From positions 1-64,000 of IMG/VR virus record IMGVR_UViG_3300020118_000165: a stretch of DNA of 64,000 nt; one strand, 5' to 3'. Below the pieces are notes generated by a model. It was not told the origin of the DNA. It did not search any database and worked only from the letters and a program-made list of their open reading frames with translations. Of the stretch, positions 34,898 to 54,748 are shown one piece after another. Every line of letters starts with the position of its first letter. Position 1 is the first letter of the stretch. The stretch is from a virus. The translations under genes were made by a program, and so were the position numbers.

Positions 34898-35491
34898 TCA
34901 CAGAGCCTCGCCCAAGATTTCCCGGCTCAAGGCACCATACTTTTCTTCGTCACCGATGACCTCTCCAGTGAGAGCAACGATCCACCAGCGCTCGCCCTTC
35001 CATTTCGGCGGCAGTAGCGTGGCGTGAAGCGTGCCTGCGTTGCAGAGATTGAGAGGACCGGCCGCGGTATGCACGACACCTGGCGCAGCGGCTTCGATTT
35101 TTCCGCCGCCGTTTGCGGCATGGCCGGTGGCGCTTGATCGCCAAAAGGCGATCGTTGCTCCTGCGGCTCGGAGAGCAACTAATCGCTTACGAAAAAAGTC
35201 TGGCCAGCGAGACGCGAAAGCGTCAATGGTGGCCAGCCAATATTCTTTACTCCCGTCCCCGGACCCGTACCCGTACCCGGACCCGGACCCGGACCCGGAC
35301 CCGTCCCCGTACCCGTCCCCGTACCCGGACCCGTCCCCGTACCCGTCCCCGTACCCGTCCCCGGACCCGTCCCCGTACCCGTCCCCGTACCCGTCCCCGG
35401 ACCCGTCCCCGTCCCCGTACCCGGACCCGGACCCGGACCCGAGAAGGCTCGCCGCCTTCGCCGGCTCGCCTCTAAGGATCAGCGGCTCCAT
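34898..35491 (-). CDS. Gly-Ser/Tyr/Asp repeat protein with conserved C-terminal domain
   Basis: 197 residues from ATG 35491. Residues about 17-83 are alternating Gly with Ser, Tyr or Asp encoded by a hexanucleotide repeat. The following domain (EYWLATIDAFASRW, GATIAFWRSSATGHAANGG, LCNAGTLHATLLPPKWKG, WWIVALTGEV) is a conserved segment known from phage and bacterial proteins of unknown function. The GS-rich arm is likely flexible. GGGAG precedes ATG by eight bases. Confidence 0.72.
   Translation of the reverse strand: MEPLILRGEPAKAASLLGSGSGSGYGDGDGSGDGYGDGYGDGSGDGYGDGYGDGSGYGDGYGDGSGSGSGSGYGYGSGDGSKEYWLATIDAFASRWPDFFRKRLVALRAAGATIAFWRSSATGHAANGGGKIEAAAPGVVHTAAGPLNLCNAGTLHATLLPPKWKGERWWIVALTGEVIGDEEKYGALSREILGEAL
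35253..35441. repeat. Hexanucleotide microsatellite
   Basis: About 31 copies of a six-base unit CCGNAC/CCGTCC (plus strand, with CCCGTA, CCGGAC and CCGTCC variants) run without interruption. It encodes GSGSGYGDG-type repeats leftward. A change in copy number keeps the reading frame, so it would alter arm length only. Confidence 0.9.
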
Positions 35492-35778
35492 GGCGCGCTC
35501 TCCCATGCCTGGGCGGCATCAGACGAGCACTCCGCAACGCAAGTGATATCGCGCAGCTCGATATCGGCCTGCGGCCCGATCTTGCAGGACTTACTCGGGC
35601 CGGTCGAAGCGAGGCCAAGGAATCCCTTCACATCGCTTGACCAGTAGATGCAATTGCGCGCGGCCCGCAGCGCGATAGTGGCGCCGTCCGTCTTGGTGGC
35701 GTAGCCGAAGAACACGCCGCGATGTGCGGTAGTGACGAGCACCGCGCGTTCCTTCTTCCGGTTCGGGTGATTTACCAT
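35479..35778 (-). CDS. DUF6948-type protein
   Basis: 99 residues from ATG 35778, preceded by AGAGGG. The pattern ERAVLVTTAHRGVFFGYAT, RAARNCIYWSSDVKGFLGL and STGPSKSCKIGP matches DUF6948 domain proteins seen in phages of Alphaproteobacteria. A longer in-frame start at 35847 is weaker. Unknown function. Confidence 0.7.
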   Translation of the reverse strand: MVNHPNRKKERAVLVTTAHRGVFFGYATKTDGATIALRAARNCIYWSSDVKGFLGLASTGPSKSCKIGPQADIELRDITCVAECSSDAAQAWESAPWSR

Positions 35779-47979: not shown

Positions 47980-48207
47980 CAAACCGTATAATTACATCTG
48001 CATGGATGGGCTGTGTTTGTTGGGGCAGTACTTTTCAGCGGTTTGCGAACCAATAACTGGAGTCTCGGCGTATTATGTAGATTCAAATCTAATCCCCTCG
48101 CTCGGATTCCGTTCCCGCCAGCCCTCAATGAGGTAGCTGTTTGGCGTCCGTATACCTTCGGCGCCGCACTTCAGCGGGCCCGCGCGATGCTCGCAAATGC
48201 GGACTAG
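47888..48207 (+). pseudogene. Conserved phage protein disrupted by a one-base gap
   Basis: From ATG 47888 the frame reads PFTLLALIAWLERQPADKPY, CMDGLCLLGQYFSAVCE and YYVDSNLIP. The minus-one frame then reads ARIPFPPALNEVAVWRPYTF and GAALQRARAMLANAD, ending at 48207. One missing C in CCCC at 48094-48097 joins them. The full protein resembles a small conserved phage family. Sequencing error or real break. Confidence 0.68.
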
Positions 48208-48859
48208 GCGTCCCCGCTCCTACATCCCACTGCCCGAGCGGCTCGCCGCGGCGCTGGCCTGCCTGCTTCCCCCAGAGCAGAGCGAAGAACTCCGTCGGCG
48301 TAAGGCACCCGCGCAAGAGGTTCTGGCTCTATTTGAGTTCGAGCAGGGCAATGGCTGGTGGGATACTATTTTGAAAAGAGCCCCTAATCAGCCCCTCGAC
48401 TTCGGCGAGGTCTGGCTGCCGATCCGCGGCTATGAGGGGATTTATGAGGTCTCTAACTATGGCCGCGTTCGGTCTCTGCCACGGACTTATATCCGGATAT
48501 GTCATGTAAAGAAACGGATACTGAGCACCAAAAGTGGTCCCGATGGCTATCCGCGAGCGAACCTATGCGTAGATGGAAAACCAGCGACTCGGCTCGTCCA
48601 TCAATTGGTAGCAGAGGCATTCATCGGGCCGTGCCCTCCCGGAAAGCTTGTTTGCCACAATGATGGAACACGGAAGAACTCGAAACTGTCAAATCTTCGC
48701 TATGACACTAATTCTGGCAATATGGCCGACAGGTTGATCCATGAAACGTCCAACCGATTCCGAACGCCGAAAAAATATCCCAATCAAGATAAAATTAGCG
48801 TCCGCGCTGCTCGCGCTGTGCGATATCCCTTACGAGGACGCAAAACAAATGACCGCTGA
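48197..48859 (+). CDS. HNH homing-type endonuclease with NUMOD4 and a foreign N-terminal segment
   Basis: 220 residues. Residues 1-52 (RRPRSYIPLPERLAAALACL and VLALFEFEQ) are the start of a conserved phage protein seen complete in the next gene. From residue 70 is NUMOD4 (IRGYEGIYEVSNYGRVRSLP) and HNH (GKLVCHNDGTRKNSKLSNLR, then YDTNSGN). The joined protein looks like a homing endonuclease inserted into that gene. Overlaps the next gene by 119 bases in another frame. Confidence 0.75.
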   Translation: MRTRRPRSYIPLPERLAAALACLLPPEQSEELRRRKAPAQEVLALFEFEQGNGWWDTILKRAPNQPLDFGEVWLPIRGYEGIYEVSNYGRVRSLPRTYIRICHVKKRILSTKSGPDGYPRANLCVDGKPATRLVHQLVAEAFIGPCPPGKLVCHNDGTRKNSKLSNLRYDTNSGNMADRLIHETSNRFRTPKKYPNQDKISVRAARAVRYPLRGRKTNDR

Positions 48860-49401: not shown

Positions 49402-49740
49402 ATGATAGTTAAGGTCCTGGAACTCCGCGACGCCGGCACATTTATCCCGGTCATTTGCATCAAGCCGGTGCCCGAGAACGAGGGGCAGCGCTACCTCCTG
49501 CGCCGCGACGGCTACTCGTGCAACCCGATGGATCGGCTTGTCATTATGATCAACGCGCAGTGCCGTGGCGCGGCTTACGACCCCTACGACTGGCGCGACG
49601 CCCGCACCAAGCGGACGGCGCACATCTACATCCAGGAGAAGTGGGAAGACCTCCGGGACGGCGACGTGATCGACGTTCAATTCCTGCTAGGCGAGACCGA
49701 CAAGCCGAAGGTCAGCGAGCGGGAGACCGCGCCATGCTGA
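49402..49740 (+). CDS. Small conserved phage protein
   Basis: 112 residues from ATG 49402 (GGAG six bases upstream). VLELRDAGTFIPVICIKPVP, QRYLLRRDGYSCNPMDRLV, IYIQEKWEDLRDGDVIDVQF. This pattern recurs in phages of Alphaproteobacteria. Function unknown. A longer ATGA-coupled start at 49309 is possible. Confidence 0.65.
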   Translation: MIVKVLELRDAGTFIPVICIKPVPENEGQRYLLRRDGYSCNPMDRLVIMINAQCRGAAYDPYDWRDARTKRTAHIYIQEKWEDLRDGDVIDVQFLLGETDKPKVSERETAPC

Positions 49741-49907: not shown

Positions 49908-49947
49908 ATATTTGCAGCGGGCGGCAGGATTTGCTAGAATACGAATC

Positions 49948-50057
49948 TTGGCGTGGCTCGATAGGGCAACGTTAGGTAAGGTCAGGTTGAGTTGGGCGTG
50001 GCTTGGCGGGGTCTGGCATGGTCAGGCAAGGTCCGGCACGATCTGGTGAGGCAAGGT
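49948..50057 (+). repeat. NNGGY pentamer array 1 (22 units)
   Basis: 110 bases that read as 22 units of NNGG(C/T), for example TTGGC GTGGC, AAGGT, CAGGT, with only a few deviations. It ends with AAGGT followed by TTTTT. The plus strand is strongly G-rich. No protein frame is supported. The period of five bases is unlike coding sequence. Confidence 0.85.
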
Positions 50058-50105
50058 TTTTCTTCCGCGGCGATCAACGCGGTTAGAAGCGGCATCAAAC
50101 ACGAA

Positions 50106-50179
50106 TCTCCTTCGCGTTCGGTGTCGCAGATGCGACCCCTGAAACCGCTTCCGGGCTTGATCGGCCGGCGCGAAGGAGA
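50106..50179. repeat. Inverted repeat with inner hairpin between the arrays
   Basis: TCTCCTTCGCG (50106-50116) pairs with CGCGAAGGAGA (50169-50179): 11 perfect pairs. Inside is GTCGC-AGAT-GCGAC (50123-50136). It sits midway between the two NNGGY arrays and could form a cruciform or structured RNA. Confidence 0.7.
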
Positions 50180-50222
50180 CCTACATTGGCAAGCGCAAAA
50201 GTCATCGCGATTAGTGAGCGGC

Positions 50223-50292
50223 GCGGCCAGGTTTGGTTAGGCGCGCTGAGGTTGGGCCCGGCGGGGCAAGGTCCGGCAAGGTATGGCAAGGT
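50223..50292 (+). repeat. NNGGY pentamer array 2 (14 units)
   Basis: 70 bases as 14 units of NNGG(C/T), ending again with GGCAAGGTTTTT. The last 30 bases share a version of the end of array 1 (GGCAAGGTCCGGCA). It leads directly to the exonuclease ribosome site. Confidence 0.85.
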
Positions 50293-50317
50293 TTTTAATT
50301 CCCGATGGAGAAAAAAT

Positions 50318-51265
50318 ATGGAAGCTAAACTATGGGATGGAGCACCGATCAACGTGCCTGGGCTTTATCGCGGTATTCCGCTTGAATCCTATCATTCTAG
50401 CGTCATCTGTATCGGGCCATCTATCAGCTCATCTGGCCTGCGCTGCATCGACCCAGATAATGGCGGGAGTCCTGCGCATTTTTATTCGCGGTGGAGCGGC
50501 AACCCGCGCCGCGTCGAGCAGAAGGACCCGAAGCACTTCATCATCGGCCGCGCGGTTCATCATCTGATGTTGGGCGAAAAATGGTTCAGTAGATTGTTCA
50601 GCATCAGGCCAGAATCATATCCTGATAGGAGGGTTTCGAACGTCATGAAGCCGTGGCACTCGAATCGATTGGAGTGCCGCGCGTGGCTCGACAACCAGGA
50701 GCGGCTCGGCAAGTCGGTGCTGACGGCGGCCGACGTGGAGAACATCAAGGGGATGGCCGAGTCGCTCGCGCGCCTTCCGCTGGTGCGCGCCGGCATCCTC
50801 AACGGCCAGATCGAGCGCAGCATCTTCTGGAAGGACGAGGAGACCGGCGTGTGGCTCAAGGCGCGGCCTGACGCGATACCGACGGGGTCGGGTGATTTTT
50901 GCGATTTGAAAAGTTGCCAGTCGGTCGCTTGGCCGGACCTCATGCGCCAAATTACTGAGCACCGCTATCACCAACAGGCCGCTTGCGTCCGCACCGCCGC
51001 CGTCGAAGTCCTCGGCATCCCGAAGGAGCGGTTCACCTTCACGCTCGTGTTCGTCGAGAAGGAGAATCCCTGGTGCGGCCGCACCGTTCAACTCAAGCCC
51101 GACGACCTCGACATGGGCGAGAAGCAGAACCGCAAAGCCATCAACATCTTCGCCTCGTGCCTCAAAACCGGCGATTGGCCGGGGCCAGGAGAGAACGACG
51201 ACGCGCCGTTCATTGATTTGCAGGACCACTATCGCAATAGGATCGCGCAGAGGCTGGCGTCATGA
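50318..51265 (+). CDS. PDDEXK exonuclease, partner of RecT (RecE/lambda Exo type)
   Basis: 315 residues from ATG 50318, after CCCGATGGAGAA. Earlier in-frame starts lie inside the repeat array. The N-terminal part with GRAVHHLMLG and the catalytic Asp185 and Asp196-Leu-Lys198 (SGDFCDLKS) fit PD-(D/E)XK phage exonucleases. It resects DNA ends for annealing by RecT at 53346-54440. Six genes lie between the two. Confidence 0.85.
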   Translation: MEAKLWDGAPINVPGLYRGIPLESYHSSVICIGPSISSSGLRCIDPDNGGSPAHFYSRWSGNPRRVEQKDPKHFIIGRAVHHLMLGEKWFSRLFSIRPESYPDRRVSNVMKPWHSNRLECRAWLDNQERLGKSVLTAADVENIKGMAESLARLPLVRAGILNGQIERSIFWKDEETGVWLKARPDAIPTGSGDFCDLKSCQSVAWPDLMRQITEHRYHQQAACVRTAAVEVLGIPKERFTFTLVFVEKENPWCGRTVQLKPDDLDMGEKQNRKAINIFASCLKTGDWPGPGENDDAPFIDLQDHYRNRIAQRLAS

Positions 51266-53345: not shown

Positions 53346-54440
53346 ATGAACGACGCAACAGAAGTGAGAACAGAAGTGAGAGAACCGGAGATCACGGTCG
53401 TCAAGAACGAGGCCCGCGAGGCTGCGATGATGATCCCGGTGGAATCGGCAGGCGTGACCCTGCAGAACTTTGCCCAGCAGGTGGACTACGCGAAATGGAT
53501 GGCGCAGGCCGGGTTCGCGATCAACAAGGATCTGCGCGAGAACGTCGGCGCTTGCCTCGCCGTCCTCGATATGTCGCAGCGGTGGGGGTTCGCGCCCTAC
53601 CAGGTCGCGCGGCTCTGCTACCAGGTAAACGGGACGATGGCGCTGGAGAGTCAGTTGATCCACGCGGTTATCGAGAAGTTCGCCCCGCTCGCGCAGCGCC
53701 TGCGGTGCTCGTACGAGGGCGAGGGCGCGGACCGAAGGTGCATCGTCACCGGGCACATCAGGGGGGAGGTCGATCCGCTGATCTACACTTCGCCGAAAGT
53801 CGGGAACATCAAGCCCAAAAATTCACCGCTTTGGTCGACCGACGTTGACCAACAATTATGGTATTTCTCGAGCCGCTCCTGGTGCCGCAAATACTGCCCC
53901 GACATCCTGATGGGCATCTATGGCCGGGACGAGGTCATGGATTCCAACATCGGCGCGGCGAACGCCATCGACGTGTCCCCCGGCGTCGCAGCCGGCCTGC
54001 ACGAGCGCCTCAAGGAGGCCAAGGCCAACGGCGCGGCCGAGGAGGGCTTCCAGGACGGGGCCGTCCATGCCGAGCTGGAGGCCGGCCAGGACGAGCAGGC
54101 GAAGCCGCCCAGGGGCCGGGGCAAGAAGGCGGCTACCGAGCCAGCCCCGGCGCAGACCACCATCAGCGGCCACGCCAAGCCCGCTGAGGGCCATTCCGAG
54201 AAGAAGGCAGAGGAGGCCAAGCCGGAGCCGAAGGCCGAGCCCAAGCTGCCCAAGACCGTGAAGCAGTACCGGCAGTGGGTCGTCGGCTGGCTACCGACGC
54301 TCGATTCGGCCGACGCCATCGACGACCGCTGGCGGGAGGAGAGAAAGTTGCGCAACGCCTGTGGCCTCGTCGAGGACGAGAGAAAAGAGGTCAAGCTCTT
54401 GGTCGACGGGCGGGTGGCCGCGTTGAGGGGAGGTGCATGA
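53346..54440 (+). CDS. recT: RecT-type single-strand annealing protein
   Basis: 364 residues with the RecT core (GACLAVLDMSQRWGFAPYQV, ALESQLIHAVIEKFAPL, LWYFSSRSWCRKYCPDILMG), then a Lys/Ala/Glu rich linker and a helical C-terminal segment. It anneals DNA strands together with the exonuclease. CCCGATGGAGAA precedes ATG. The disordered linker and C-terminal extension are extra to the usual 270-residue protein. Confidence 0.9.
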   Translation: MNDATEVRTEVREPEITVVKNEAREAAMMIPVESAGVTLQNFAQQVDYAKWMAQAGFAINKDLRENVGACLAVLDMSQRWGFAPYQVARLCYQVNGTMALESQLIHAVIEKFAPLAQRLRCSYEGEGADRRCIVTGHIRGEVDPLIYTSPKVGNIKPKNSPLWSTDVDQQLWYFSSRSWCRKYCPDILMGIYGRDEVMDSNIGAANAIDVSPGVAAGLHERLKEAKANGAAEEGFQDGAVHAELEAGQDEQAKPPRGRGKKAATEPAPAQTTISGHAKPAEGHSEKKAEEAKPEPKAEPKLPKTVKQYRQWVVGWLPTLDSADAIDDRWREERKLRNACGLVEDERKEVKLLVDGRVAALRGGA

Positions 54441-54748
54441 TGTTTGATCCCCAAAAAACGCTTAAAGAACTGTACGACGAAAAGATCATCAGCGGCATGA
54501 TATATAATAGTTTGTCGTTTGCCGACATTAATACAGTAGGAGATATTATCGCTCGTTCAGACAAAGACCTTCTGAAAAACTATGGGTTCGGTCGAACGGG
54601 TCTTAGGGAGGTGCGGCGCTTATTTGGAGCGTCAACTCACAAGGTCGACCACATTCAAAAGTGGCGGAGCGCCGTCATTGCCGGACACACTCTTTTAGGC
54701 TTTGACGAGTGGTGGGCAGAAAATGGAGCCGCCGTTATGAAAAAATAG
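54437..54748 (+). CDS. RNA polymerase alpha-CTD-like protein
   Basis: 103 residues from ATG 54437 (ATGATG overlaps the RecT stop). The core LKELYDEKIISGMIYNSLSF, TVGDIIARSDKDLLKNYGF, GRTGLREVRRLFG is the helix-hairpin-helix of bacterial RNA polymerase alpha C-terminal domain. It may redirect host transcription or act as an anti-activator. Last gene of the rightward operon. Confidence 0.82.
   Translation: MMFDPQKTLKELYDEKIISGMIYNSLSFADINTVGDIIARSDKDLLKNYGFGRTGLREVRRLFGASTHKVDHIQKWRSAVIAGHTLLGFDEWWAENGAAVMKK

Follow-up and report, generated by a model that had tools for sequence, protein, structure and literature searches.

The window analyzed here, a 64,000-nucleotide stretch of a 71.7-kb phage record (IMG/VR IMGVR_UViG_3300020118_000165), contains two arrays of GGYNN pentamers on the plus strand, located ahead of genes for an exonuclease and a RecT-family annealing protein. 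Array 1 (49950-50059), a candidate vrRNA in the terms introduced below, comprises 22 units, with a 9-unit intact core and a 13-unit 3′ part. Exact GGY, in the form of a GGC or GGT start, was found in 18 of these units; the imperfect ones read GATAG, CGTTA, AGTTG and GATCT. Array 2 (50220-50294), the second candidate vrRNA, comprises 15 units, 14 of them intact, with GCTGA as the single imperfect unit. Both arrays end in GGCAAGGTTTTT. After this common end the sequences 3′ of the two arrays diverge, and no structured 3′ tail common to both was seen downstream of them. A previous sequence-only reading of the locus had reported twin arrays of 22 and 14 units around an inverted repeat. The arrays and their shared end proved to be real and the first count was correct, but the second array has one unit more than reported.

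To judge the arrays against chance, we used an array scan with a reporting floor of 4.5, in which they scored 12.0 and 12.5. Among 20 Markov-random 64-kb sequences with the trinucleotide statistics of the window, 19 lacked any segment scoring 4.5 or more, and the remaining one reached 5. In addition, a 5-unit GGYNN pattern matched the 71.7-kb record 11 times, always within arrays 1 and 2, as opposed to 0 matches on the other strand and 0 matches for a reversed control pattern. The two arrays are thus far above chance and are the sole GGYNN arrays in the record. With 18% imperfect units, array 1 ranks among the worst 6% of comparable arrays. We rejected the possibility that the arrays are coding repeats, as GGTAA units create in-frame stops in array 1 and the evidence places the start of the exonuclease at 50318. 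Elsewhere in the window, an ORF at 34898-35506 encodes repeats of the GDGSGYGDG type; this tandem repeat is of low complexity, and its opposite strand is open too.

Upstream of array 1, a sigma-70-like promoter is predicted on the plus strand at 49911..49940 from its match to the consensus (TTGCAG-17-TAGAAT or TTTGCA-18-TAGAAT, with TG before the -10 element). One promoter-like site was found in this region, compared to 0.3 in shuffled sequences. The site ends nine bases upstream of array 1 (49940), and transcription is predicted to start at about 49947, adjoining the first unit. Between the arrays lies a putative structured element (50060..50180, plus strand) with the previously noted 11-bp inverted repeat, TCTCCTTCGCG at 50106-50116 and CGCGAAGGAGA at 50169-50179, and an inner hairpin between its arms. 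The predicted folding energy of this element is −65 kcal/mol, 1.4 standard deviations below its own shuffles (z −1.4), showing that it is weakly structured beyond composition; an Rfam search gave no match. An AAGGAG motif at 50173, well upstream of a TTG at 50186 (50173-50188), is paired in the predicted inverted-repeat structures, which makes translational control of the exonuclease possible. The stop-free frame that begins at TTG 50186 contains array 2 and joins the exonuclease frame; with this caveat, the earlier statement that the arrays lack coding capacity holds overall.

The exonuclease start that has homology support is the ATG at 50318, so that array 2 is followed by a ribosome-binding site and then by this ATG. 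The gene (50318..51265, plus strand) encodes a RecE/exonuclease VIII-like PDDEXK nuclease (DUF3799, E 7e-17; phrog_412, E 2e-63) and is probably co-transcribed with the arrays. Downstream on the same strand lies the gene for the RecT-family annealing protein (53346..54440; PF03837, E 1e-5), which confirms the position ahead of exonuclease and RecT genes noted in the earlier reading. The exo-RecT operon closes with a gene (54275-54748) whose small product has a domain resembling the C-terminal domain of RNA polymerase alpha (PF03118, E 1.4e-7), and slightly upstream of the arrays, at 48197-48859, there is a NUMOD4/HNH homing-endonuclease-like gene. Judged from this sequence context, the arrays appear to be situated in the exo-RecT operon's 5′ leader, downstream of the promoter-like site.

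Repeats of this kind have recently been assigned a function. According to the main text of a bioRxiv preprint of 2026 (PMC13142463), VIPR is a phage-encoded system that combines the RAMP protein Vipr with vrRNA guides into a CRISPR-like phage-versus-phage weapon. The vrRNAs are small RNAs bound by Vipr; their repeat, YNNGG, alternates a conserved GGY with a hypervariable NN over 9-16 units, and the NN pairs recognize double-stranded DNA under a 1-nt-skip rule, leading to transcriptional repression of competing phages (PMC13142463). The same text reports seven types, describes an invariable structured 3′ tail of the vrRNA for type II, and includes both vipr and a vap accessory gene in the full locus. 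The model phage of the preprint is SUSP1, and its discovery route was a structure-first search (PMC13142463).

Our own approach started from the arrays. Viral contigs were scanned for ten exact GGYNN units and loci were chosen by arrays alone. This screen of phage genomes, a check proposed by the earlier reading, returned at least 120 viral loci, and the array loci listed belong to phages of many kinds. The units of 80 array loci showed 97% fixation of GG and 98.6% pyrimidine at the third base, while the last two bases were near random. In SUSP1, arrays flank two small genes, one of which encodes ALH47069 (195 aa). From its size, position and motifs we infer that ALH47069 is the Vipr of the preprint, an identification made by the present analysis. 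With this single type II sequence as the seed, an iterative profile search detected the Vipr family in 86 of the 120 listed array loci, a count to which the SUSP1 locus itself may contribute. A second model, derived from 73 aligned sequences, detected the family in 85/120 listed array loci versus 0/62 control loci, the latter having been fetched for reasons other than arrays. Whole-record searches added four further full-length matches and two partial, end-truncated ones.

The Vipr family corresponds to phrog_4652, which is annotated as 'unknown function', and Pfam holds no model for it. An AlphaFold model of the family reached a mean pLDDT of 97. When this model was compared with the PDB by Foldseek, the top matches were nearly all CRISPR type III effector subunits; likewise, the best 50 chains listed by VIA-align were all Csm3/Cas7-type RAMPs (best Z 9.7, rmsd 3.6 Å, 144 residues aligned). 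By its predicted structure, the Vipr family is a Csm3/Cas7-like RAMP. GGYNN arrays and this protein belong together in data that are independent of the preprint, and an array-first search thereby supports a pairing that was originally reached by a structure-first search.

Several of the surveyed loci showed peculiarities of their own. In locus L017 (6311-7010), about 140 uninterrupted GGYNN units (700 bp, score 112.5) directly follow a Vipr gene, far above the range of 9-16. Loci L045, L019, L008 and L094 carry consecutive blocks of about 8-13 units with a one-base phase slip between them; with their block spacing of 5k+4, they may correspond to the 'staggered' arrays mentioned in the preprint (PMC13142463). 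On the minus strand of locus L030, tRNA T-arm-like motifs (GGTTCGACTCC) occur after each array and may possibly represent a tRNA-like vrRNA tail; we rejected these tails as tRNA genes since ARAGORN finds no tRNA. In the Vipr-bearing locus L089, the array ends in GGCAAGGTTTTT and is followed by a ribosome-binding site and the ATG of vipr, with no obvious common tail after it. This layout is identical to that of array 2 before the exonuclease. Its recurrence in front of vipr suggests that this 3′ terminus is characteristic of vrRNAs and not an accident of the present locus. As far as their sequence goes, the most fitting interpretation of the arrays is that of guide-RNA repeats, in preference to structural repeats or iterons. 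Of the structured leader proposed earlier, the leader part is consistent with our data, but the repeats themselves would not be the structural component.

In contrast to most array loci, the present phage has no detectable Vipr gene. No homologue was found in the 71.7-kb record by the iterative profile, the 73-sequence profile or PHROG 4652, no remnant was found when all six frames were searched by profile without filtering and with reading continued past stops, and no RAMP motif was noticed when the unnamed ORFs were read by eye. A 111-aa neighboring protein (49405-49740) was considered as a hidden Vipr and rejected, as its model (pLDDT 79) had no significant PDB match; its viral relatives reside in contigs without arrays. 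The record is probably nearly complete, because a reading of its termini showed that the tail operon runs on across both ends and because the Rhizobium phages whose terminases are the closest have circular genomes of 68-69 kb. The terminase relatives, these Rhizobium phages included, contain no GGYNN arrays. One 16-kb relative does have a Vipr-like gene, and the 3.5 kb of sequence retrieved around this gene contains no array.

Arrays without a detected Vipr also occur in other long records, for example one of 35 kb with many arrays and one of 105 kb with three. The 35-kb record (locus L144, record G001) has many GGYNN arrays between genes, as well as PDDEXK and ERF-like genes, and no Vipr by the models used; it could belong to a guide-only phage or encode a Vipr type not yet described. 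In the Vipr-less loci L041 and L050, an array adjoins a recT gene as it does in the window phage. Neighbor-gene tallies, in which the numbers are small, gave no clear enrichment of RecT in Vipr-less loci. Vipr itself was found in 6 of the 297 genomes sampled within the order to which Bradyrhizobium algeriense belongs, which may not be the order of the phage host.

We also searched for targets of the arrays, applying the one-base skip. Three eight-unit cores and one further eight-unit core were compared with viral contigs, and one ten-unit core was compared with genome contigs. The further eight-unit core had no match in the viral contigs, and all other matches ended with the core or extended past it by no more than about one unit. 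A 10-unit match in Bradyrhizobium algeriense was discounted as chance-like, since it stops at the core. For self-targets in the 71.7-kb record, nothing better was found than shuffled guides give. Matches that end at or about one unit past the core are what chance predicts, and we recognize no convincing target in the contigs searched; natural targets may reside in elements beyond this sample.

Taken together, we consider it likely that the arrays are vrRNA-type guide RNAs that are transcribed as the exo-RecT leader and would most plausibly serve a Vipr that is provided in trans. That they are of the vrRNA type is the most secure part of this explanation and is very probable; that use in trans is their current role has a somewhat less than even chance. 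In the proposed mechanism, transcription would begin at the promoter just before array 1 and proceed as the leader of the exo-RecT operon, and the leader transcript would be matured into two guides. Vipr subunits would recognize the GGY triplets as a scaffold, and a gapped DNA target would be spelled by the NN pairs. A Vipr encoded by the host, by a prophage residing in the same cell or by a co-infecting phage would then bind the guides and repress their targets. Use in trans appears the likeliest mode given that the searches of the record detected no Vipr gene, and we counted in its favor both the Vipr genes in the order of Bradyrhizobium algeriense and the other long Vipr-less array records. 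Against the explanation as a whole, we counted the absence of Vipr, the lack of a convincing target, the imperfect units of array 1 and the missing shared tail. The arrays and their statistics, the family association, the RAMP fold and the absence of a detectable Vipr come from the present analysis; the guide function, the 1-nt skip and the repression are taken from the preprint (PMC13142463).

The strongest alternative is that a full VIPR locus was once present, that vipr was lost and that the arrays are decaying in the exo-RecT leader. The absence of Vipr from the record, the 4 broken units among the 22 of array 1 and the lack of arrays in the terminase relatives would all fit such a relic. 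However, the promoter-like site is intact, the six-frame search left no Vipr remnant, and array 2, with 14/15 units intact, resembles Vipr-adjacent arrays, in which 10% of the units are imperfect. We regard decay as unlikely, though it deserves more weight than the alternatives that follow. It is considerably less probable that our models missed a Vipr of the phage because of its divergence, or that its gene lies in a part of the genome absent from the record. Conceivably, a model grown from one type II sequence could miss some of the seven types reported in the preprint (PMC13142463), and several multi-array records, such as the 35-kb one, are likewise Vipr-less. The model nevertheless spans a family of great breadth (mean column identity 23%), neither the unnamed ORFs nor the 111-aa neighbor looked RAMP-like, and the near-complete state of the record speaks against a missing part.

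Marginally less probable still is an RNA decoy, by analogy with solitary CRISPR repeats, which titrate or mis-load Cas proteins. The arrays would in this case titrate or mis-load a hostile Vipr of host prophages, as might be expected of guides that lack an effector and a detectable target and are sited in an early operon, all the more since Vipr is present in some Rhizobiales genomes; yet their NN composition resembles that of ordinary guides. Lastly, a replication origin, a recombination hot spot or a G-quadruplex/R-loop element, to which GG every five bases, the adjoining recombination genes and the RecT neighbors of L041 and L050 could point, is very improbable, as the arrays track the RAMP family and not exo or recT, a pyrimidine at position 3 is not required for a G-quadruplex or R-loop, the terminase relatives lack arrays, and the GC-skew inflection that the sequence-only reading had proposed to look for at its replication or recombination site is absent from the arrays. 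An attenuator was weighed alongside these and rejected.

Some phages may be 'guide-only': they would carry vrRNAs without Vipr, have their guides wired into the exo-RecT early operon, and turn to their own use, or poison, a Vipr that belongs to a different phage or prophage within the same cell. We put this forward tentatively, with more doubt than confidence. Such phages would represent cross-element use of an RNA-guided system or an RNA-based anti-VIPR, and guides acting in trans would mean that phages share or sabotage one another's RNA-guided weapons. Our results draw attention to phages that have guides but no detectable effector for them.

Among known systems, the TRAP-binding leader repeats of trp attenuation have a related periodicity in an RNA leader, formed by (G/U)AG triplets and 2-nt spacers. 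The window arrays share this period of a triplet plus two nucleotides, but their triplet is GGY and GGYNN arrays are associated with the RAMP family, not with TRAP. Class 1 CRISPR systems are comparable through their Cas7/Csm3 (RAMP) effectors, whose fold is predicted for the array-linked protein family. They differ in that no CRISPR repeats or cas genes were noticed in the window phage, and in that CRISPR spacers are contiguous whereas vrRNA guides are read via gapped NN pairs (PMC13142463). The closest likeness is to the vrRNAs of VIPR: the window arrays are tandem GGY/NN units with hypervariable NN, are intergenic, run sense to the genes and are phage-borne, and the 15 units of array 2 fall within the range of 9-16. 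Array 1 is longer, with 22 units, and partly degenerate; furthermore, the record has no detected vipr, no identified vap gene, no identified target and no common structured tail that could be seen. By sequence, then, the arrays have the form that defines vrRNAs and the locus falls short of a complete VIPR locus; we have filed it under vrRNA-type arrays without effector because vipr was sought and not found. The main text of the VIPR preprint contains no description of guide-only phages (PMC13142463). A pattern present in many phage contigs is explained by a guide-RNA code that was reported only in 2026 (PMC13142463). VIPR itself was already known, and guide arrays without an effector are what is new relative to that main text.
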